From Anaerolineae bacterium (lineage in GTDB: Bacteria > Chloroflexota > Anaerolineae > Promineifilales > Promineifilaceae), in the NCBI GenBank assembly GCA_023954475.1, contig JAMLHW010000004.1, positions 310,001 through 374,000 of the forward strand: a stretch of DNA of 64,000 nucleotides, given 5' to 3'. Every line of letters begins with the position of its first letter. The stretch's first letter is position 1. The notes under the pieces are model-generated. The model did not search any database and was not told the origin of the DNA. It saw only the letters and a program-made list of their open reading frames with translations. A program made the translations under genes and the position numbers. Below, one piece after another: positions 11,953 to 46,133 of this stretch.

Positions 11953-13413
11953 ATGAAATCGAAAAAGTTTTACTTGATGTTGGTTCTGGTGCTATTCGGT
12001 GCACTGTTCCTGGTCGCCTGTGGCGGCAGTGACGAGCCTGAAGAAACCACCACGACCTCCGAAACAACGGCTGAAGAAGCTGTTGTCGATACAGAAGCGA
12101 CGGCCGAAGCTGAAGCTGCAATGGCTGAAGAAGAAGCCATGAACGCGGAAGCAACAGCCGACGCCGAAGCGGCTATGGCCGAAGAAGATGCGATGAACGC
12201 AGAAGCAACGGCCGACGCCGAAGCGGCCATGGCTGAAGAAGAAGCTATGGCTGAGGCTACCGAAGAGCCTATGGAAGAAGATGCGGCTGCAACAGACGGC
12301 CCTACACTGACCATTTGGGCAGATGAAACTCGCGCACCCGTACTTGAGACGCTGGCTGAGCAATTCAAGGCCGATTACGGTATCACCCTAGTAATTGAGC
12401 AGGTTGCCGAACGTTACGAGCAATTCAATATTGCTGCCCCCGCTGGTGAAGGCCCGGACATCATGTTGGCTGCCCACGACCGCCTCGGCGGCTTTGTCGA
12501 GAGTGGTCTGGTTGCGCCAATTGATTTAGGTGCAAAAGTTGACAACTTCACGCCAGAATCAGTGCAAGGCTTCACGTACAACAGTGAACTGTACGGTATG
12601 CCGTACGCAACCGAGAACCTGGCTTTCTTCTACAACAAAGATCTCATCGATACACCACCCGCAACATGGGATGAAATGGTCGAAATGGGTCAGGCATTGA
12701 TGGAATCTGGTGACGCCACACAGGTTATTGCCTTAACCGGCACAACCTACGACATCTTCCCGCTGAACACTGGTTTCGGTGGCTATATCTTTGGCCAGGA
12801 CGCTGACGGCAACTACGATCCGACAGATGTGGGTCTTGACAGCGAAGGTTTCATTGCTTCCGGTGACTTCCTGCAAGGTCTGGTGGCTGATGGACTGATC
12901 TCAAATACCACCGACTGGGATACCGCCCATGTGCTGTTTGAGCAAGGCGATGTTCCGTTCCTGATGGCTGGCCCGTGGGCACTCAACCGACTGCGTGACT
13001 CTGGTGTCAACTACGGTATTGCCACATTCCCGACCGGACCTAATGGTGAAGTCAGTGCGCCATTCTTAGGCGTTCAGGGCTTCGTCGTCAACGCGCTTAG
13101 CGAAAACGTACTGCTGGCACAGACATTCTTGACCGAGTTGGTTGCCAATGATGACATCATGCAGGCTTTGTTCGATGCCGACCCGCGTCCGTCCGCATGG
13201 ATTCCGGTACTGGAGAAGATCGACGATCCGGATATTGCAGCATTCGGTGAAGTGGCTCCAAGTGCTTCTCTGATGCCATCGATTCCTGCCATGAGTGCCG
13301 TCTGGGGCACATGGGATCCGGCAATTGCTCTGATTCTACAAGAGCAGGAAACGGCAGAAGCGGCATTGACTAATGCTGCGACACAGATCCGTGATGCCAT
13401 TGCCGAACAATAG
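11953..13413 (+). CDS. Sugar ABC transporter substrate-binding lipoprotein (MalE-like)
   Basis: Extracellular receptor of a carbohydrate importer, 486 residues. The signal peptide ends in the lipobox LVAC with Cys23. A very acidic linker (about 24-115) contains a tandem 18-residue repeat. The mature domain starts at PTLTIWADE (about 117) and has the family 1 solute-binding pattern (YGMPYATENLAFFYNKDLI, PFLMAGPWALN, GVQGFVVN). GAGGAG about 6 bp upstream supports the ATG. The two permease genes follow after a terminator, so the binding protein is probably made in excess. The substrate is likely an oligosaccharide. Confidence 0.92.
   Translation: MKSKKFYLMLVLVLFGALFLVACGGSDEPEETTTTSETTAEEAVVDTEATAEAEAAMAEEEAMNAEATADAEAAMAEEDAMNAEATADAEAAMAEEEAMAEATEEPMEEDAAATDGPTLTIWADETRAPVLETLAEQFKADYGITLVIEQVAERYEQFNIAAPAGEGPDIMLAAHDRLGGFVESGLVAPIDLGAKVDNFTPESVQGFTYNSELYGMPYATENLAFFYNKDLIDTPPATWDEMVEMGQALMESGDATQVIALTGTTYDIFPLNTGFGGYIFGQDADGNYDPTDVGLDSEGFIASGDFLQGLVADGLISNTTDWDTAHVLFEQGDVPFLMAGPWALNRLRDSGVNYGIATFPTGPNGEVSAPFLGVQGFVVNALSENVLLAQTFLTELVANDDIMQALFDADPRPSAWIPVLEKIDDPDIAAFGEVAPSASLMPSIPAMSAVWGTWDPAIALILQEQETAEAALTNAATQIRDAIAEQ
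12106..12264 (+). repeat. 54-bp in-frame tandem repeat in the lipoprotein linker
   Basis: About three copies of an 18-residue unit (theme AEAAMAEEEAMNAEATAD) make the Ala/Glu-rich spacer between the lipid anchor and the binding domain. The unit number could vary between strains by slippage. Confidence 0.85.
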
Positions 13414-21899: not shown

Positions 21900-23168
21900 A
21901 TGCAGACGACAATCAGAAAACTCGCATTTCTCTTGCTAGCAACAGCCACGTTACTAGCAGCATGTGGAAATGATGACAATGGAATAACTCCGACACCCGG
22001 CTCAATCGACACATCGCAGATCGAGAATCTATTGGCAGCTACAGCCACACCGGTGCCACTGCTCACGGCGCCACGCAGTCCGGGCACTCTGTTCATATGG
22101 CACGCCTATGGCACAGGTAGCGCCGAAGAAGCAGCCCTGATTGCCGTCATCAAAAACGCGCAAGAAACATTGCCTGACCTGACCATCGACGTGTTGCAGT
22201 TACCTCAGGAAACCATATACGATCAGTGGGAAGCGGGTGTGGCAGCGATTTCCGGGCCGGATATCCTCATCGCACCCAACGACCGGCTGCCCGGCCTGGC
22301 ACGTGACGGCCTTGTCTTGGACCTGACCGACCCGCTGGCCGGACAACTCGATGGTTTCAGTGACACAGCGCTGACAGGCATGAGCGTGGATGGACGGCTC
22401 TTCGGTGTGCCGCAATCGCTTGCAGGCACCGTTCTCTACTACGATAAAACCCGTATTGCCTCACCGCCACAGACGACCGAGGCGCTCCTGACAGCACAAC
22501 AATCAAGTCAGACGGTCGGCAATATCGTCAGCGCCTATTATTTGTACAGCTTCATCCCAGCATTTGGCGGCGTGATAATCGACGACAGTGGTACAACAGC
22601 CTGTCCACAACAAGACGGCATAGTCGCCGCATTCCAATACCTGGTCAATCTCAAAAATTTCGGTGGGTTCTTTGATGTGGAAATCGGCCGAGTTGATGAA
22701 CTGTTTCTCGACGGCACGCTGGCCATGATTGGCAACGGCTCGTGGGAATTATCACACTATGAAGCGGCGCTGGGTGACGATCTCGGGGTTGCCCCGCTTC
22801 CGTCAGGCACAGCACCCGCACGTCCGTTTATCAATGGCGATGGTCTCTACATCAATCCCAAGAGCCGCAATGTAGAAACGGCATTGGAACTGGTATTGAA
22901 GATGACCGACATGGAATCGGCCGAAATCTGGGCCAACACAGCCTCGCACATTCCGGCCCGCAACAACATTGTTCTTGCCGATCCCAATTTGCAGATGCTT
23001 GCACAGGCACTCAACACGGGACAATCCGTACCCGATTCCCCCAGCTTTGAATTCTATTGGGACATTTTTGACGACGCATTCAGTCAGGTCCTCAAAGGCA
23101 CATCTGATCCGGTAGATGTCGTTGCTGCGGCGTGTACTGCACTGCAGGAAGCAATCGACAGTCAATAG
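21900..23168 (+). CDS. Second ABC sugar-binding lipoprotein (orphan)
   Basis: Family 1 extracellular solute-binding protein of 422 residues. The ATG at 21900 opens a clear signal peptide (MQTTIRKLAFLLLATATLLAACG) with lipobox LAAC. The frame is open further upstream, but that part is not signal-like. The mature domain starts at GTLFIWHAYGTG (about residue 65) and shows GVPQSLAGTVLYYDKTRI and AMIGNGSWELSHY segments typical of maltose/oligosaccharide receptors. No permease follows, so it may deliver substrate to the MalF/MalG pair upstream. The stop codon lies inside the first unit of a tandem hairpin repeat. Confidence 0.88.
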   Translation: MQTTIRKLAFLLLATATLLAACGNDDNGITPTPGSIDTSQIENLLAATATPVPLLTAPRSPGTLFIWHAYGTGSAEEAALIAVIKNAQETLPDLTIDVLQLPQETIYDQWEAGVAAISGPDILIAPNDRLPGLARDGLVLDLTDPLAGQLDGFSDTALTGMSVDGRLFGVPQSLAGTVLYYDKTRIASPPQTTEALLTAQQSSQTVGNIVSAYYLYSFIPAFGGVIIDDSGTTACPQQDGIVAAFQYLVNLKNFGGFFDVEIGRVDELFLDGTLAMIGNGSWELSHYEAALGDDLGVAPLPSGTAPARPFINGDGLYINPKSRNVETALELVLKMTDMESAEIWANTASHIPARNNIVLADPNLQMLAQALNTGQSVPDSPSFEFYWDIFDDAFSQVLKGTSDPVDVVAAACTALQEAIDSQ

Positions 23169-23245
23169 CTGACTGTATCGACAGTCAATAGCTGACTGTA
23201 TCGACAATCAATAGCTGACTGTTTCGACAATCAACAGCTGAGACT
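23154..23245 (+). repeat. 23-bp tandem repeat, each unit a small hairpin
   Basis: Units begin at 23154, 23177 and 23200, with a decayed fourth from 23223. Each contains ACAGTCA-ATAGC-TGACTGT or a near copy, which can fold back on itself. The first unit contains the stop codon of the sugar-binding protein. There is no unique spacer between units, so this is not a CRISPR array. Confidence 0.9.
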
Positions 23246-38103: not shown

Positions 38104-38242
38104 ATCAAAAAAGCATTGTCTGGCTGGTGTTGTTACAATCATATTCTTGAGACAACACTTTTCAGCGAAACTACCAATGAAACTATCCATTCCAGTCGCA
38201 TGCCATTCGGCAACATAACAGTTGTCTTACTGGAGAAAAGCT

Positions 38243-39436
38243 ATGAGTGAAGTGAAAATCGATCCACGTCAATTGATACAGGAACTCAGTGTTGAGGAAT
38301 TGTGTGAAACGGCCGAAACATATTACGCTGCGATCACTGACCCTATACCGCAAATGGCAAAACCGTTCTCCAACACACTAGACGCGCCGCACTTGCTCTA
38401 CAGCATGGGCATGTTGTTGTCGGGAATGCGGCTCGGCAAGTCGATGACCGTCCTCGATTTTGGCGCGGGTACGTGCTGGTTTTCTCGTTGCCTCAACCAG
38501 ATGCAATGCGTGACTATCTCTGTTGATCCGTCAGCATCGGCTTTGGAAATGGGGCGGCGGCTCTTTGAGATGCAACCGATTTTGGGTGGAACGTTACAGC
38601 CACCTCGTTTTGTGCTTTTTGATGGCTATACCATCGACGTCGCTGACGAAAGTGTAGACCGCATCGTCTGCTTTGACGTGTTTCACCACATTCCCAATCA
38701 GGAGCAGGTATTGCGCGAGTTTTACCGCGTTCTCAAGCCGGGTGGCATTATCGGATTCAACGAACCAGGTCAAACGCATTCACAGACGGCGCAATCGCAA
38801 TATGAGATGCGCAATTTCAAGGTTTTGGAGAATGATATTCACCTTGACGAGATCAAGGCGCTGGCTGAAGGGATCGGTTTTGGCGAATTGCGTATCAAAT
38901 TGTTGCTGACGCCAGATTTTGAAATGAGTTATGCGGATTATGTACGCACAACTAAGTGGAAATTACCACCGTCTGCGGCCAGGCACAACGCAGTGGCAGC
39001 AACACGTAATGGAACGGTGTTTTTCTTCACAAAAGGCACGTATATTAACGACAGTCGTAGCCACACGGGTTTAAGTCACCGGCTGGAGGTCTTATCGTAC
39101 GACAAGTCAGTAACAAAGGGCCGGCCTTGTAACATTGTTGTTCGCGCCTATAACACTGGCTCGGGTCGTTGGTTGCACGAAAATGTGGGCGATATTGGTG
39201 TTGTCAAGGCCGGCGTCCATTTGTATAAAGCGGATGGCACATTGCTCGATTTGGATTTCGGCCGAGGCGTGCTCCAATCTGATGTCATGCCGGGCGATTC
39301 GGCCGAAATTCCCATCTCCGTCACTTTCACTGAACCCGGCGAATATAAACTGGAAATCGATATGGTGTCGGAAGCTATCATCTGGTTCGGACTGCTGGAC
39401 AGCGAGACGCAGACGATTCAGATAACCGTCACCTAA
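38243..39436 (+). CDS. SAM-dependent methyltransferase with C-terminal beta-sandwich
   Basis: 397 residues. The ATG at 38243 has GGAG 7 bp upstream. A class I methyltransferase domain (about 60-230) has motif I VLDFGAGTCWFSRCL, and IVCFDVFHHIPNQEQVLREFYRVLKPGGIIGFNEPG as motifs II-III. A separate C-terminal domain from about 275 (LEVLSYDKSVTKGRPCNIVVRAYNTGSGRW) looks like an immunoglobulin-like or carbohydrate-binding sandwich, as found in enzymes that modify surface polysaccharide. The substrate is unknown. It has a long spacer before it and probably its own promoter. Confidence 0.82.
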   Translation: MSEVKIDPRQLIQELSVEELCETAETYYAAITDPIPQMAKPFSNTLDAPHLLYSMGMLLSGMRLGKSMTVLDFGAGTCWFSRCLNQMQCVTISVDPSASALEMGRRLFEMQPILGGTLQPPRFVLFDGYTIDVADESVDRIVCFDVFHHIPNQEQVLREFYRVLKPGGIIGFNEPGQTHSQTAQSQYEMRNFKVLENDIHLDEIKALAEGIGFGELRIKLLLTPDFEMSYADYVRTTKWKLPPSAARHNAVAATRNGTVFFFTKGTYINDSRSHTGLSHRLEVLSYDKSVTKGRPCNIVVRAYNTGSGRWLHENVGDIGVVKAGVHLYKADGTLLDLDFGRGVLQSDVMPGDSAEIPISVTFTEPGEYKLEIDMVSEAIIWFGLLDSETQTIQITVT

Positions 39437-39450
39437 ATGAACTCAGCGTT

Positions 39451-39571
39451 CTCGGTTTTGCCAACGGTCGATGATTTCCGGCAATCGGCCGACGCGTTGT
39501 CTCAGTGTCGTATATTACGGTAACGCGGCGATGAACAGTTCGCCGTAGCGACGGCTCAGCACGCGCTTGTC
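39451..39571 (-). pseudogene. Displaced 3' end of the exonuclease-helicase gene (121-bp duplicate)
   Basis: This 121-bp stretch matches 43325-43445, the 3' end of the DnaQ/DinG-type gene, with seven substitutions and no indels, in the same orientation. Most differences are synonymous, but one makes a stop codon. The two copies flank the four-gene zinc module as direct repeats. The rest of the helicase gene is missing here. It therefore looks like the old end of the gene, cut off when the module arrived, or a trace of a local duplication. Confidence 0.9.
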
Positions 39572-39609
39572 TGAACGAATGCACCGGGACATCATTGCTC
39601 GGCGCTAAT

Positions 39610-40428
39610 TTATTGGTTGTAGTCGTAGGGCGTGATAGTAGCGTTCTGAATACGGTAGCCGGCTACGCCAATGTCAGTCGTTTGACCTTCGGCGAGAAGT
39701 TCGCCCACCACCCATACTGGGTAATACGAATCGCCCACATCAACACCATTGCCGTCCGCTGCAGTGACATATACTGTTTGATTTGCAGGCGGTGGTGGCA
39801 CATGGATACACGCGCCAAAATACGGTACGAGCAGGAATTCGGTAATCGTATCATCCTGGTATTCGAGAGGAGCGATAAAACCGGGAAGCTTGATCTTCTG
39901 TGCGTTTAGCTCACTGTTGATCGGTGCATTCATAAACTCTTCCTGCATCAGATCGTACAAATCCATCGCGGCAGAGTCACCGTCTTGCATCTGATTCAGT
40001 TCGTCCTGATATTTGGCCATGATATCTTCGGGACGAAAGCCGGGAGGCACCATCTCTTCCCATGCGAGTTCACGATATCCCTGGTCATCGATGACGACAG
40101 CGACAGGCGTGGCTTCGGCCGATTCCTGCGGTGTGGTAGGAACTTTGGGTAACGCTTCACCCAATTCGAACTCAGCTTCTTCTAGTGATGGCACATTAGG
40201 TGGTGTGGTCGGCATTACTGTCAATGTTGGCGGTGGTTCCATTGTCGCTATCGCAGTCGGATTCTCAGGAGTGGGTTCGGCCGAATTGTCCAATACAAGA
40301 TCGGCAGGGGTCGGTGCGGCCACAGAAGGTGCTGCAGGCGCGCATGCTGCAAGAACGAACAGCAAAATAGATAACGATATCACGAGAAAACTGAAAGATT
40401 TCAAACGAAATGTAAGCATGCGTTTCAA
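39610..40428 (-). CDS. DUF3299 lipoprotein of the zinc module
   Basis: 272 residues. The signal peptide ends LAAC (Cys29), followed by a long Pro/Thr/Glu linker to about 140. The C-terminal domain (about 150-250) has IKLPGFIAPLEYQDDTITEFLLVPYFGACIHVPPPPANQTVYV, the hallmark of DUF3299, with a conserved Cys-x-His that could hold metal. DUF3299 proteins are often encoded beside ZrgA-like zinc proteins and MacB-like ABC genes, as here. The gene starts 4 bp after the permease gene, last in the operon. The exact role is unknown. Confidence 0.88.
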   Translation of the reverse strand: MKRMLTFRLKSFSFLVISLSILLFVLAACAPAAPSVAAPTPADLVLDNSAEPTPENPTAIATMEPPPTLTVMPTTPPNVPSLEEAEFELGEALPKVPTTPQESAEATPVAVVIDDQGYRELAWEEMVPPGFRPEDIMAKYQDELNQMQDGDSAAMDLYDLMQEEFMNAPINSELNAQKIKLPGFIAPLEYQDDTITEFLLVPYFGACIHVPPPPANQTVYVTAADGNGVDVGDSYYPVWVVGELLAEGQTTDIGVAGYRIQNATITPYDYNQ

Positions 40429-40431
40429 TAC

Positions 40432-41685
40432 CTAGATGCGAATCGACAAACCGTCCTCGACCGAACGTCGATATGCAACGATACCTGGAATCAGGCTGAT
40501 TATCAGTGCCAACAAGATGGCGACACCGATCATCATCCACTGTCCCCCGTCCGGCGGAGTTAAGGCGATCGAAATGCCATACAGTTCGGCCAACAATGGC
40601 CGCGCCATTGCCAGTCCAACATATAGCAGCAGCAGCCCAAACAAGCAACCAGCCACCACGATCATTAATGTTTCCAGCATGAACAGCAACAAGATATGGT
40701 ACGGATGCGCACCAACAGCACGCAAGACTGCCATCTCGCGCCGCCGTTCGTTGAGCGTTGACAACACAGAAGTCAACATGCCGATCAAGGCGGAAAACAG
40801 TACCAGCGCCGCCAGCACAGCCAATACTTGTTCAAATACGCCGATGGATCGCCACAATTCAGCAAGCGTTACGCCAGGCACAATCGCCTGGAGCGGCTCT
40901 TCCCGATATTCGTTGATGGCTCGCTGCACCTGAAATGTCTGAATCCGGTTTTCCAGACCCAGCATGAACGCGGTGATTGTTTGCGGCTCTAAATCAAATT
41001 TCCGTGCTTGTTCGGCCGAAATCTCAAGCGGCATACGCACTCCAGCATTCCAATCGATGTGAATCGCCTCAATGCCCTCCAGCGAAATGTGCACAGTTCG
41101 GTCAACCGGCGTACCTGTACGTTCCAGAATTCCGACCACGTGAAACGGCTTATCGTCGTGGGCGGCAAATTCAGTTGCAATTGCGCCATGTGAAATGATA
41201 ATCTCATCTCCAAGCACATAGCCTAGTGAGTCAGCCACCTCCGCGCCCAGCACCGTGTCGTAGAGATCGGAAAATGGCACGCCTTCCTGGAATGCCAACG
41301 CCTCGTCCTGCCCATAACGATAATGTTGGAAGTAGTCTTCATTGGTTCCCATCACCCGAAAGCCACGATGCGAATCTCCCAATGAGATTGGAACAGTCCA
41401 CGCTACTTCATCCAGTGCAGCAATATCCTGAAATGACTCCCACGATACATTATTGGTGGCGTTGCCAATACGAAACACGCTGTAGAGCAGCAAGTTGATC
41501 GATCCGCTCCGTGCGCCGACGATCAAATCAGTTTGTGAAATTGTGTTGACAAAGCTATTGTGTGCTTCTTTGCGCACCTTATCCACGCCGAGCAGCAAAA
41601 ACATGCTGACGCTAATTGAGAAGATGGTCAGCAGCAAACCGACGCGTCGATGCCACGCGCTTTTGAATGCGATGCGCCAGATCAC
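40432..41685 (-). CDS. MacB/FtsX-type ABC transporter permease of the zinc module
   Basis: 417 residues with one N-terminal membrane helix, a large extracytoplasmic domain (about 40-270) and three C-terminal helices in the FtsX pattern. The block LSTLNERRREMAVLRAVGAHPYHIL before the second helix is the conserved cytoplasmic coupling segment. Such permeases do not move small solutes through a classical channel but transmit force to periplasmic or lipid-anchored partners. It overlaps the ATPase gene by 4 bp and so forms a pair with it. Confidence 0.9.
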   Translation of the reverse strand: MIWRIAFKSAWHRRVGLLLTIFSISVSMFLLLGVDKVRKEAHNSFVNTISQTDLIVGARSGSINLLLYSVFRIGNATNNVSWESFQDIAALDEVAWTVPISLGDSHRGFRVMGTNEDYFQHYRYGQDEALAFQEGVPFSDLYDTVLGAEVADSLGYVLGDEIIISHGAIATEFAAHDDKPFHVVGILERTGTPVDRTVHISLEGIEAIHIDWNAGVRMPLEISAEQARKFDLEPQTITAFMLGLENRIQTFQVQRAINEYREEPLQAIVPGVTLAELWRSIGVFEQVLAVLAALVLFSALIGMLTSVLSTLNERRREMAVLRAVGAHPYHILLLFMLETLMIVVAGCLFGLLLLYVGLAMARPLLAELYGISIALTPPDGGQWMMIGVAILLALIISLIPGIVAYRRSVEDGLSIRI

Positions 41686-42413
41686 GTCTTTGCCAACTCC
41701 TGCCGGGAAACTGCCGCTCGGGCTGCTTCGTTGATCACATCCATCTCGACAACCCGTGAAAACTGGTCGGCAAGATGGGCATCATGGCTGACAAAGATGA
41801 GCGTACACCCTTGCTGGTCCGCCTCGCGAAAGAGCAATTCCAGAAAACGACTGCGGTTATCGGCATCGAGTGCAGAGGTCGGTTCATCTGCGATCACGAT
41901 TTCAGGCCCTCCGATCAATGCGCGAGCTACCGCGACGCGCTGCTGCTGGCCGACGCTGAGCTTGCCTGCCTGTTTAGTCAGTAAAGCAGACGGAACGTTG
42001 AGTGCTTCCAGAAGTTGCTTTGCCTGCTCTCTTGGGTTGCCTGCTTTCTCACGGCGGCGATGTGAAAACCAACATGGCAGCACGACGTTTTCTGCGATGG
42101 AGAGGTAAGGTAGCAAATTGAACTGCTGAAAGATGACGCCCAGATGATCGGCGCGAAATTGGTCACGTGCCCGCTGATTGAACTCATCTAGCCGTGTGCC
42201 GATGATAGTGACCGATCCGCTGGTTGGTTGATGAATGCCGGTCAGTAGATTCAGCAGCGTGGTCTTGCCACTTCCGCTGGCACCACGCAGCAACAGGTGC
42301 TCACCACGCTCGACTGAGAGATACGGAATGTACAGCAGGTCGTCTTCGTGCTTGTTCCACGCAAAGCGCAGATCACTCAGTGTCACAACGGCGTCAGACA
42401 TGGCGTAGGTCAT
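41682..42413 (-). CDS. ABC transporter ATPase (LolD/MacB type) of the zinc module
   Basis: 243 residues (or 239 from the ATG at 42401, which gives the more family-like start MSDAVVTL). Walker A GASGSGKTTLLNLL, the Q loop FQQFNLLPYLSIAENV, signature KLSVGQQQRVAVARAL and Walker B IVIADEPTSALD are complete, and the switch His lies in FVSHDAHLAD. It powers the FtsX-type permease next to it. No clear ribosome site is seen, and translation may be coupled to the upstream ZrgA-like gene, whose stop is only 4 bp away. Confidence 0.9.
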   Translation of the reverse strand: MTYAMSDAVVTLSDLRFAWNKHEDDLLYIPYLSVERGEHLLLRGASGSGKTTLLNLLTGIHQPTSGSVTIIGTRLDEFNQRARDQFRADHLGVIFQQFNLLPYLSIAENVVLPCWFSHRRREKAGNPREQAKQLLEALNVPSALLTKQAGKLSVGQQQRVAVARALIGGPEIVIADEPTSALDADNRSRFLELLFREADQQGCTLIFVSHDAHLADQFSRVVEMDVINEAARAAVSRQELAKT

Positions 42414-42417
42414 ACTG

Positions 42418-43104
42418 CTAGCGCAGCATCACAACTGGGGTATCCGGGGTCGCTTCGGCCGAAGATTGCACGGTATCGGATATCCACTGTACGTCAAGGT
42501 CGGCGAAGTTGGGGAATCGCTCAAACAGCGCACTCAAATCGAGGGACTCGATCGCTTCTGGGTTAGCGCAGGTCAAGGTGAAGGCAGCCTCAATGTCGCT
42601 GTGGACTTCTTCGTCGCCGTGATCGTCGTCAGCATGGTCGTCATCTGCATGGTCATCCTCATTGTCATGGTCTGAAGCAGATTCCCAATCAGAGATAATT
42701 GCTACCTCTTCAACTACGCACTCAGCGTCGTCATTGAAGCCTAAGAGGTCATCGTTTTCTAAAGATGCGAAAGCATCAGCAACGACTTGCTTATCACTAT
42801 CGCTTGTCGGCTCATACTCAAAACCAACGATGTTGAAAGCGGGGGAATCGAGATCGGCTTGCATGTCGCTGCCACTCCAGGCAATAGTCAATGTCGCTGC
42901 ACCGTGTTCGTGTGCACCGTGTTCGCGCATTTCAGCCGAATCATGGTCATCGTCATGATCGTTATCGTGATCTTCGTCCACCGTATCAGCCCGTGCCGGA
43001 GCAACCGGTTCCGTTGACTGCGAGCTACTGCATGCCGACGCCAACACGCCTATTGCCATCAGGCAGATTACCCCGAGCATCACTTGCTTCATAACCATTC
43101 GCAT
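42418..43104 (-). CDS. ZrgA-family (DUF2796) zinc-binding lipoprotein
   Basis: Predicted zinc receptor of a zinc-uptake system, 228 residues. The ATG at 43104 has AAGGAG upstream and opens a signal peptide ending LASACSSS. The frame is open further upstream but is not signal-like there. The mature part has a His/Asp stretch (about 40-60, DEDHDNDHDDDHD-like), then EHGAHEHGAATLTIAWSG, then SPAFNIVGFEYEPTSDSDKQ, the DUF2796 signature. A second His/Asp run, DDHADDDHADDDHGDE (about 155-170), should also bind metal. It is the first gene of the four-gene operon and sits just behind a perfect dyad operator. Confidence 0.86.
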   Translation of the reverse strand: MRMVMKQVMLGVICLMAIGVLASACSSSQSTEPVAPARADTVDEDHDNDHDDDHDSAEMREHGAHEHGAATLTIAWSGSDMQADLDSPAFNIVGFEYEPTSDSDKQVVADAFASLENDDLLGFNDDAECVVEEVAIISDWESASDHDNEDDHADDDHADDDHGDEEVHSDIEAAFTLTCANPEAIESLDLSALFERFPNFADLDVQWISDTVQSSAEATPDTPVVMLR

Positions 43105-43114
43105 TGTAAGGACT

Positions 43115-43141
43115 CCTTTTTGATATAAAATATCAAAAAGG
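43115..43141. promoter_or_regulatory. Perfect 27-bp dyad operator of the zinc module (Zur/Fur-like)
   Basis: CCTTTTTGATAT (43115-43126), AAA, ATATCAAAAAGG (43130-43141), with no mismatch. It lies between the -10 box and the start codon of the ZrgA-like gene, covering the expected transcription start and the ribosome site. A repressor bound there would shut the operon. AT-rich dyads of this size are typical of Fur/Zur-family sites, and zinc control is inferred from the genes. Confidence 0.78.
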
Positions 43142-43169
43142 ATTATACAGAATTCATATAAGGATGCAA
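43142..43169 (-). promoter_or_regulatory. Promoter of the zinc module
   Basis: Reading the minus strand, TTGCAT (43169-43164), 16 bp, then TATAAT (43147-43142), directly abutting the dyad operator. The same TTGCAT -35 form is used by the tRNA-Sec promoter. Confidence 0.6.
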
Positions 43170-43316
43170 GAGCACAAAATGCTACATTCGGTTTCTTTAT
43201 CAACGCAATTTGGGGAAATGGATCGAAACAATTCAGGCTATCTCTGCAAGCAAACGCAATCCGTGTGAATCGAATCACCCTTCCAAACAGCTTGTTTGGT
43301 GTACTCAATCTGGTGA

Positions 43317-46133
43317 TCAACGCGCTCGGTTTTGCCAGCGGTCGATGATTTCCGGCAATCGGCCGACGCGTTGTCTCAATGTCGTACATTCCGGTAACGC
43401 GGCGATGAACAGCTCACCGTAGCGGCGGCTCAGCACGCGCTTGTCCAGTACAACCACAATGCCCTCGTCGTCAATGCGGCGAATCAATCGGCCGAAACCC
43501 TGCCTGAACTTCAACACCGCCTCCGGAATCGTATACTCATAAAACGCATTTTCAAACGTCTCCGACCGCGCCGCGATGATCGGGTCCGACGGCACATCAA
43601 ACGGCAGCTTGACCAAAACCACCGCCGTCAACGCCGCACCGGGCACATCGACACCTTCCCAAAACGAGCGCGTTCCCAGCAAAACCGCCCGCGCGTCCGG
43701 CTCTTTGAACTGATCGAGCAACTGCTGCCGCGCCGACCCTTCACTCTGAGCCAGCAGCGCGATGCCCAGCTCATCCAAAGCAGGCGCAATCGCCTGCGCC
43801 GTTTCCCGCAACTGCCGGTAGGATGTGAAAAGCACTAGCGTACGCCCTCCCAACGCAGCGACAATATCGACAATGGCCTGATTGACAACTCGTTGATAGC
43901 CAGGCTGATTTGGCTCCGGCACATCTGAACACAGGTAAAGCAGTGTGTTGCTTTCGTAATCAAATGGCGACCCTACCGCCAATTCATCACTGTGACCGGC
44001 ATTCAAACGCGTGCGAATATAGTCAAAGTTCGCCTCGTCATAGCGTCCAAGCGGTGCCGTGCGCAGTGTCGCTGACGTTAAAATCACGGCATCTAGCTGG
44101 TTGAACAGATGCTCCTCAACCAGTGGGCCGACATTGAGCGGTGCCGCATGCAGTGAAACGCGGTCGCGCCACACTTCCGCCCAGTAAATCATCTCGGTAT
44201 TGGGCCGAGCAATAATCTGGTCGAGATTCAGGCGTGTTTCTTCAACGCCGGATGCATTCGCCATCAATGCTGCCTGCAATTCATCGGCATCTGCAATATC
44301 GAAATCCGCATTTTTTAGGTCAGCTAACCCTTTAGCGAGTTTGTTGAAATGTTTTTCGATGCGTTGCAGGGGCACATTGAGATTGTCCCAGGCAATGACG
44401 ACGTCATCCCAACCCGGTTGGGTACGAATACCGTCGATCAGGCGTATCTGTTGCGCGAAATCAGAATTTCGGCCGAAATAATCGCTCAAGAAATAGCGCA
44501 ACGTATCAAACAATTCATCCAATCGAATGTGGGCCAGTTGCCCTTCCTGACGCGCATCCTGTATTGCCTGGGCAAACACATCCTGTGCTTCCTGCGGTAT
44601 GCCACCCAACTGGTTGAGCAATTTACCCAGCAGACCCGCACGGGGACGCGTCACATCGTCCAGAATCGCCTCCAGAAACTTTTTGTCCGCCTGAAAACTC
44701 AGCCCGTTGGTGACCGCGTCTTCGAGATGATGCGCTTCATCGATGATCAAATCACGGAATGGCGGCAAAATCTGGCTGCCGGTTGAGACATTGGCGAGCA
44801 AGAGTGAATGGTTGACAATGACGATATGCGCCATTTCGGCACGACGACGCGCGATGTGCAGCGGACATGATTCGAGCGCACATTCGTTCGTGCGACATTT
44901 GGCAACATCGGCGCTCAGACGCCGCCACGCCATGCGTTCACCCGGTGTACGCAAGCTGATTTCGGAGACATCGCCAGTTTCACTGACACCCAACCAGAGC
45001 AGAATACGCGCATAGACGGCCATTTCATCGGCCGAACCCGGCCCATTGTGACGCATCTGCTTGAACAGGCGCGTACACAAATAATTGTTGCGCCCTTTGC
45101 GCACAGCAGCGCGAAACGCAATCGGAATCAATGCCTGCAGCGCAGGAATATCTTTATGCAGCAACTGATCCTGCAAGTTGATTGTGTTGGTTGAAATGAC
45201 AACGCGTCGCCCATTGATCGCAGCCCAAAATGCAGCCGGTAACAGATAACCGATACTCTTGCCCGTGCCGGTACCTGCTTCAACTAGCAAATGCTGTTGT
45301 TGATTGAGCGCATGACCGACAGCGGCCACCATGTTGAGTTGTTGTTCGCGGAATTCGTAGGCCGGAAAATATTGGCTGAAATTGGCACCGGGTAGCAGCA
45401 TCGACGCGATGGCATCGACGTCAATCGCTTCCAATTCGTGGTCTTCGCGTGCAATGACTGTTTGCCCCTCCAGTCGTGGGGGCCGGAACAGATTGGCGAC
45501 ACGGCTTCTGCTGACCGTACCACTGTCAAATGCGTTTTGCATACCCGATTGCGCCGCGTCGCGGAAGAAAACTGTCTCCGGCCAACCGATACCGTCTCCG
45601 GCTATGATAATCTCTTCCAGCAGCGGCAGCGGAATGCGTGCAGCGCGGTCGAGCAGCACTTCAAACAGGGACACGGTGTGGCGAGCATCGTTGAGGGCGC
45701 GATGATCCTGAAAACGGGCAAATCCAAAATGGGCGATCAGGTTTTCGAGGGAATATCGGCCGATTTCCGGTGCCAGGATCGACGCCAATGTGACTGTATC
45801 GACGCGATAATTGTTCATGGCCAGCCGTTCCGCTTGCAAAAAGCCCTGATCAAAGCCGACGTTATGCCCGACGAGGACGTGGTCGGCGATGATACGCTTA
45901 AGCTGGGCACGGACAGAAATCATGGCCGGTGCATCGGCAACCATATTGTCATCGATGCCGGTCAATTGTGTGATTTCAGATGGAATCGGCCGATTGGGGT
46001 TGATCAGCGTTTCAAACGTATCGAGTGTCTTACCGTCACGCCAGACAACAGCAGCGACTTCAATAATTGCGTCGCGTTGAGGGTTGAGACCAGTTGTTTC
46101 GACATCGACAAAGACGTAGGTGTTGGTGGGCAT
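43317..46133 (-). CDS. DnaQ-like exonuclease fused to DinG-type helicase
   Basis: Predicted DNA-repair protein of 938 residues. The N-terminal DEDDh exonuclease domain (about 1-170) has FVDVETTGLNP (motif I), GHNVGFDQGFL (II) and HRALNDARHT (III). The XPD/DinG-type superfamily 2 helicase domain follows, with Walker A EAGTGTGKSIGYLLPAA, DEAHHLED (II), and C-terminal GRTLVLFTSYRQLRETAQ, GTRSFWEGVDVPG and GFGRLIRR. Cysteines around CRTNECALESCPLH could hold the iron-sulfur cluster seen in this family. A TATAAT on this strand (46171-46166) may be the -10 box. The last 121 bp are duplicated at 39451. Confidence 0.93.
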   Translation of the reverse strand: MPTNTYVFVDVETTGLNPQRDAIIEVAAVVWRDGKTLDTFETLINPNRPIPSEITQLTGIDDNMVADAPAMISVRAQLKRIIADHVLVGHNVGFDQGFLQAERLAMNNYRVDTVTLASILAPEIGRYSLENLIAHFGFARFQDHRALNDARHTVSLFEVLLDRAARIPLPLLEEIIIAGDGIGWPETVFFRDAAQSGMQNAFDSGTVSRSRVANLFRPPRLEGQTVIAREDHELEAIDVDAIASMLLPGANFSQYFPAYEFREQQLNMVAAVGHALNQQQHLLVEAGTGTGKSIGYLLPAAFWAAINGRRVVISTNTINLQDQLLHKDIPALQALIPIAFRAAVRKGRNNYLCTRLFKQMRHNGPGSADEMAVYARILLWLGVSETGDVSEISLRTPGERMAWRRLSADVAKCRTNECALESCPLHIARRRAEMAHIVIVNHSLLLANVSTGSQILPPFRDLIIDEAHHLEDAVTNGLSFQADKKFLEAILDDVTRPRAGLLGKLLNQLGGIPQEAQDVFAQAIQDARQEGQLAHIRLDELFDTLRYFLSDYFGRNSDFAQQIRLIDGIRTQPGWDDVVIAWDNLNVPLQRIEKHFNKLAKGLADLKNADFDIADADELQAALMANASGVEETRLNLDQIIARPNTEMIYWAEVWRDRVSLHAAPLNVGPLVEEHLFNQLDAVILTSATLRTAPLGRYDEANFDYIRTRLNAGHSDELAVGSPFDYESNTLLYLCSDVPEPNQPGYQRVVNQAIVDIVAALGGRTLVLFTSYRQLRETAQAIAPALDELGIALLAQSEGSARQQLLDQFKEPDARAVLLGTRSFWEGVDVPGAALTAVVLVKLPFDVPSDPIIAARSETFENAFYEYTIPEAVLKFRQGFGRLIRRIDDEGIVVVLDKRVLSRRYGELFIAALPECTTLRQRVGRLPEIIDRWQNRAR

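Follow-up and report, generated by a model that had tools for sequence, protein, structure and literature searches.

A putative zinc-uptake operon between two diverged copies of a helicase gene end in an Anaerolineae genome

Integrative elements that target icd and tRNA genes share with their targets identity blocks of up to ~250 bp and carry a replacement end for the gene, as set out in the section of PMC10111431 that deals with them. In Vibrio, orphan 3' ends at type VI secretion system (T6SS)/Rhs loci are explained by the insertion of modules, according to the corresponding part of PMC5361080. The zrg operon of Vibrio is tabulated in PMC9817125 with zrgD first, followed by zrgA (DUF2796), zrgC, zrgB and zrgE (DUF3299). 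Here we describe a locus of an Anaerolineae bacterium (Chloroflexota; Promineifilaceae) that recalls all three: a putative ZrgA-type zinc-uptake operon of four genes lies between the 3' end of an exonuclease-helicase gene and a detached copy of that end. The analyzed stretch, called the window below, is 64,000 nucleotides long (contig JAMLHW010000004.1, positions 310,001 to 374,000), and the host genome, G000, comprises 5.12 Mb in 26 contigs, with the locus on the 412-kb contig C21.

The observation of a duplicated gene end is confirmed and the repeat is well bounded. Positions 39443-39571 and 43317-43445 form a direct repeat of 129 bp with 92% identity. The inner copy (43317-43445) is the last 42 codons and the stop of the helicase gene, whose 938-aa product combines a DnaQ-like exonuclease with a DinG-type helicase and retains its reading frame and stop. 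The outer copy (39443-39571) has no gene body attached and, interrupted by an in-frame TAA, is a dead remnant. The inner copy, used as a BLAST query against the whole genome, was found in two places only, with E = 1.7e-48 for the remnant, and the likeness is therefore not due to chance. A preliminary description of this DNA had reported a 121-bp repeat with seven differences at 39451-39571, which is the same repeat minus its last 8 bp. As it also stated, the zinc genes lie between the copies: they occupy 39610-43107, wholly inside, leaving spacers of 38 and 209 bp. All four are on the minus strand in the order zrgA, ATPase, permease, DUF3299, and they fill the interval. No other direct repeat of more than 55 bp within 30 kb on C21 pairs a coding end with a detached copy across other genes. 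The features of the locus are as follows.

38222..39436, plus strand: gene with an S-adenosylmethionine (SAM) methyltransferase domain (PF08241)
39443..39571, minus strand: remnant of the helicase 3' end, 42 codons and stop, with an in-frame TAA and a Cys-to-Tyr change
39572..39609, no strand: 38-bp spacer with the inner joint at its edge
39610..40428, minus strand: DUF3299 lipoprotein-like gene in the zrgE position (PF11736, E = 7.4e-40)
40432..41685, minus strand: FtsX/MacB-type ATP-binding cassette (ABC) permease gene in the zrgB position (PF02687 and PF12704)
41682..42413, minus strand: LolD-like ABC ATPase gene in the zrgC position (profile matches)
42418..43107, minus strand: gene for a ZrgA zinc uptake protein rich in His and Asp (PF10986, E = 3.3e-48)
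43108..43316, minus strand: 209-bp A+T-rich spacer (G+C fraction 0.378), the presumed operon promoter
43317..43445, minus strand: helicase 3' end, the functional copy of the repeat, codons 897-938 and stop
43317..46133, minus strand: intact exonuclease-helicase gene, 938 aa (RNase_T and Helicase_C_2 domains)

The homology between the copies includes the stop codon and ends there. On the 3' side of the stop, 15 of 60 positions are identical, which is the random level, and the outer flanks of the two tails have no BLAST match to each other. Past the inner edge of the repeat the identity is again random (16 of 60), and the helicase homology of the remnant stops at 39571/39572, the inner joint, which is a non-homologous one. 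Both tails terminate at the position usual in relatives and contain the same lineage-specific residues. The remnant is convergent with the methyltransferase gene, the two stop codons being 6 bp apart; near relatives of this methyltransferase occur in five of 52 family genomes, including its own, making it an accessory gene. As both copies are whole gene ends with unrelated DNA beyond them, they are what the joining of homologous genes with different neighbours is expected to produce, and would be a coincidence if the tail had been copied locally.

Whole ends and the lack of a nearby recombinase favour recombination with DNA of a close relative. Our preferred reading, to which we give slightly better than even chances, is a scar of horizontal transfer in which two helicase ends that had evolved independently in close lineages were joined together with the zinc operon. 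The donor would have been a close relative with the operon directly downstream of its helicase gene, and its DNA would have paired with the resident helicase gene. A crossover within the gene would have supplied the donor 3' end and the operon, and the far end of the incoming DNA may have been attached non-homologously within the resident tail, 129 bp short of its stop. That tail would survive as a remnant abutting the methyltransferase gene, in an additive case of homology-facilitated illegitimate recombination; a circular molecule sharing 129 bp of homology could have given the equivalent result by one crossover. The helicase would have kept its frame and stop throughout, with the remnant decaying afterwards. 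The inner edge of the remnant is non-homologous, and the crossover site could be located only with the donor sequence. The mirror history, with the methyltransferase side and its tail as the newcomer, is equally open and accounts for the scar equally well, and the helicase-side tail can therefore no longer be singled out as the newcomer, as had been done before. The likeness to the T6SS/Rhs loci, as far as the relevant part of PMC5361080 describes them, lies in a homology-anchored module with the old gene end orphaned downstream. There the exchanged end is a variable toxin/immunity end, whereas here it is the conserved end of a housekeeping helicase, replaced by a near-equal and accompanied by an unrelated zinc operon.

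Ten nucleotide differences, spread over nine codons, separate the two copies. Six of the codon differences are synonymous; the others are a GAA to TAA stop, a TGT to TAT change in the remnant (Cys to Tyr, where 20 of 22 relatives have Cys), and GCG versus GAA (Ala/Glu, two bases) in the second-last codon. The longest identical block does not exceed 40 bp, and the innermost 20 bp are identical. With the stop codon left out, dS is ~0.27 and dN ~0.02, from six and three changes. These changes fit a local event, which we hold to be an unlikely alternative: the resident tail would have been duplicated by slippage, template switching or duplication-deletion, the operon brought in by an unrelated insertion or from another place on the chromosome, and the outer copy decayed. 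Given an expected synonymous share of 0.39 to 0.46, six synonymous changes of ten are compatible with a duplication after which only the outer copy decayed (P = 0.15 to 0.28). A model in which both copies are neutral is disfavoured (P = 0.02 to 0.05), and selection on both tails up to a recent joining is compatible with the counts. The predominance of synonymous differences, previously taken as a pointer to the entry of an element, is therefore non-discriminating. The two copies also resemble each other far more than either resembles any relative, as a local duplication would have it. Such an event, however, does not explain why the copied stretch should break off precisely with the stop codon, and no further copy of the spacer was found elsewhere in the genome, which returned short weak matches only.

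Nor is the remnant richer in new changes than the body copy, as local duplication would lead one to expect. Seven differences could be roughly polarised: we assign ~4 to the body copy as new changes (codons 906, 919 and 937, the last twice) and three to the remnant (codons 915, 916 and 932), where a decaying remnant is expected to hold 77% of the changes (P ~0.05, a weak value, with synonymous sites saturated at this distance). This polarisation is a hint that the two ends may have diverged before they were joined. The tree of the copies suggested in the preliminary description gives no rooting, the relatives being too distant: 13 of 22 are nearer the body copy, five nearer the remnant and four tie, with margins of at most 5 bases of 126 and a count biased by the remnant's stop and Tyr.

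Several points weigh against a transfer scar. The synonymous excess is compatible with duplication and decay, as just described. The dS of ~0.27 implies that the presumed donor was no near-identical strain. Neither genome collection yielded a genus mate (the best helicases are ~55-60% identical), so that neither a donor nor a module-free genus mate was found and the event itself is unseen. Homology-facilitated events often delete resident DNA instead of duplicating it. Illegitimate joining is, moreover, described as rare in the part of PMC5361080 concerned with it.

The likeness to elements that enter gene ends, drawn in the preliminary description for icd and tRNA targets, is apt in geometry and stays a rival. 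In this rival the locus would be the relic of a site-specific integrative element at the helicase 3' end, with the replacement end in its attP, the integrase lost or acting in trans, and the zinc operon as surviving cargo; we regard such a history as quite unlikely. The helicase gene stays functional, and the functional end, insert and displaced end on the far side follow one another as in the icd prophages and other replacement-end elements, as portrayed in the relevant passages of PMC10111431. The identity of the two copies over their innermost 20 bp recalls an attachment core. No integrase, however, was found in or beside the putative element. PF00589 has no match on the 412-kb C21, its six matches in the genome being on C12, C20 and C26, and PF00239 has no match anywhere in the genome, which bears out the absence of an integrase reported earlier. 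The copies are just 3.7 kb apart, a distance filled by four cargo genes; unlike the icd-type elements in that portion of PMC10111431, the insert contains no phage or conjugation gene and is all metabolic operon. The lack of a second end in related loci, detailed below, means that the site is no recurrent target among the loci examined. Recombination anchored by homology with DNA of a close relative explains the scar more cheaply than an integrase does. Thus an accessory, spread operon and an end duplicated only here survive from the original interpretation, and an entry of the integrase type is not supported.

Direct repeats flanking an insert could also be produced by a transposition that duplicated an unusually long target, or by an assembly artefact, both of which we consider extremely improbable. 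We saw no inverted terminal repeats and no transposase between the copies, and target duplications are not known to come anywhere near 129 bp. Copies that differ at ten places, with identical blocks of no more than 40 bp, on a contig of 412 kb, are unlikely to have fooled an assembler.

A second helicase end is absent from all 22 related loci, of which 14 could be read for at least 3.9 kb downstream and eight for less; in the same search the window returned its own 129-bp match as a control. A second tail within 1.5 kb downstream, which is shorter than the 3.7-kb distance seen here, was absent from 27 of 28 loci, and the remaining one (L031) gave one 20-nt stray match. These loci thus give no sign that the two copies are an old feature of the lineage, a possibility raised in the preliminary description. 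Around the helicase of 20 related loci, none of the 11 other listed window genes was found, ATPase matches having been omitted from this listing as too common. In the proposed comparison with relatives, the family thus shows a one-ended helicase but, with the neighbours of the gene not conserved and no genus mate found, cannot display an empty site.

A close relative of the permease was found in four of 52 family genomes, namely its own, G045, G016 and G066 (58-100% identity), with 69% identity in G045, 66% in G016 and 58% in the partial G066 sequence; the next best match has 25%. At 1e-50, the module is matched in three of 396 sampled class genomes (its own, G016 and G066), and ZrgA exceeds the Pfam cut-off in two of 400 sampled phylum genomes, its own included. 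Permease relatives occur in 112 plasmid records, all below 60% identity (best 53.9%), which rules out known plasmids as a near donor, and one scan of viral contigs found no module. The surroundings of the operon are readable in G045 only, the contigs of G016 (3.1 kb) and G066 (4.8 kb) being too short. In G045, where the four genes keep this order, they are preceded by a small His-containing open reading frame (ORF) that matches no Pfam family. An oxidoreductase gene and a peptidase gene flank the operon on its 13-kb contig, the helicase being located on a different one, and within the surrounding 9 kb no direct repeat exceeds 30 bp. The operon is known beside the helicase only at the locus described here. 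Judged by this distribution, the module is accessory, horizontally spread and mobile on evolutionary time. An accessory operon that occurs elsewhere in G045 without long repeats, together with a second helicase end in none of 22 loci, makes a lineage-specific insertion or joining event well supported.

The components of the operon and their order A-C-B-E are common to the Vibrio ZrgABCDE system as tabulated in PMC9817125. In that table zrgD (DUF2607) stands upstream of zrgA, whereas here only the 209-bp spacer separates zrgA from the helicase. The present host also belongs to Chloroflexota, and its ZrgA, at 164.1 bits against PF10986 (cut-off 27.4), reaches 120.6 bits against the NCBIfam equivalog NF047873, below the curated cut-off of 185. 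From the family membership of its products, the operon presumably encodes zinc uptake of the ZrgA type. Just upstream of zrgA, at ~43116-43140, lies a 25-bp perfect palindrome, CTTTTTGATATAAAATATCAAAAAG, a candidate metal-regulator site; its 19-bp core, allowing up to two mismatches, has a sole other site in the genome, at C21:273722-273740.

The DNA also carries a highly iterated palindrome resembling HIP1, with the core CGGCCG and lineage-specific flanks, or "dialects". The form TCGGCCGA occurs 617 times in the 412 kb of C21, once per 668 bp, and 88 times in the 64-kb window. Related loci (L083-L101, L066 and L120) iterate the same core with other flanks: the top palindrome is ACGGCCGT in 12 of 19 and GCGGCCGC in two (G013 and G003), with none clear in five. 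In G045 it is TCGGCCGA, with 24 copies in 18.9 kb. The module interval, 39572-43316, holds four TCGGCCGA, in agreement with the preliminary description, and no ACGGCCGT; the G045 module has two of these sites at matching codons, namely zrgA codon 216 and permease codon 223/225. A donor with the same TCGGCCGA dialect, as had been proposed, would fit these counts, but the sites could also postdate the entry of the module. A literature search found no paper on a highly iterated palindrome in Chloroflexi, and a term search found neither "Chloroflex" nor CGGCCG in the HIP paper PMC4390886.

Other direct repeats on C21 are tandem, or lie inside or between neighbouring genes. A candidate second gene-tail duplication, C21:27123-27213 versus 38260-38349 (L103), was rejected: it is a 91-bp hairpin-like repeat, 87% identical, and is neither a tRNA nor a coding end. 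Its second copy starts where a 591-aa ORF has its stop codon, and the repeat is perhaps of terminator type or similar to a miniature inverted-repeat transposable element (MITE). The tandem repeats include a short array at 23154-23241 of the window with the 23-bp unit ATCGACAGTCAATAGCTGACTGT, 54-bp coding-type repeats rich in Ala/Glu codons at 12069-12249 of the window, and a ~1.8-kb array at C21:88549-90347 with a unit of ~120 bp and copies 88-93% identical.

It is very unlikely that the locus represents a small cassette that needs no integrase and inserts itself at the 3' end of a conserved housekeeping gene, anchored there through homology by a spare gene end that it brings along. If it did, operons could be gained downstream of such genes and lost by end-to-end recombination with the gene unharmed, providing a recurrent route of gain. 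We explain the locus as an ordinary transfer scar that is unusually legible. Read in this way, it records how an accessory metal-uptake operon may have become fixed beside a conserved repair gene, in a Chloroflexota lineage that has been little studied. The att-like geometry of gene, replacement end, cargo and displaced end is possible with no integrase in sight, and such scars alone should therefore not be counted as integrative elements.

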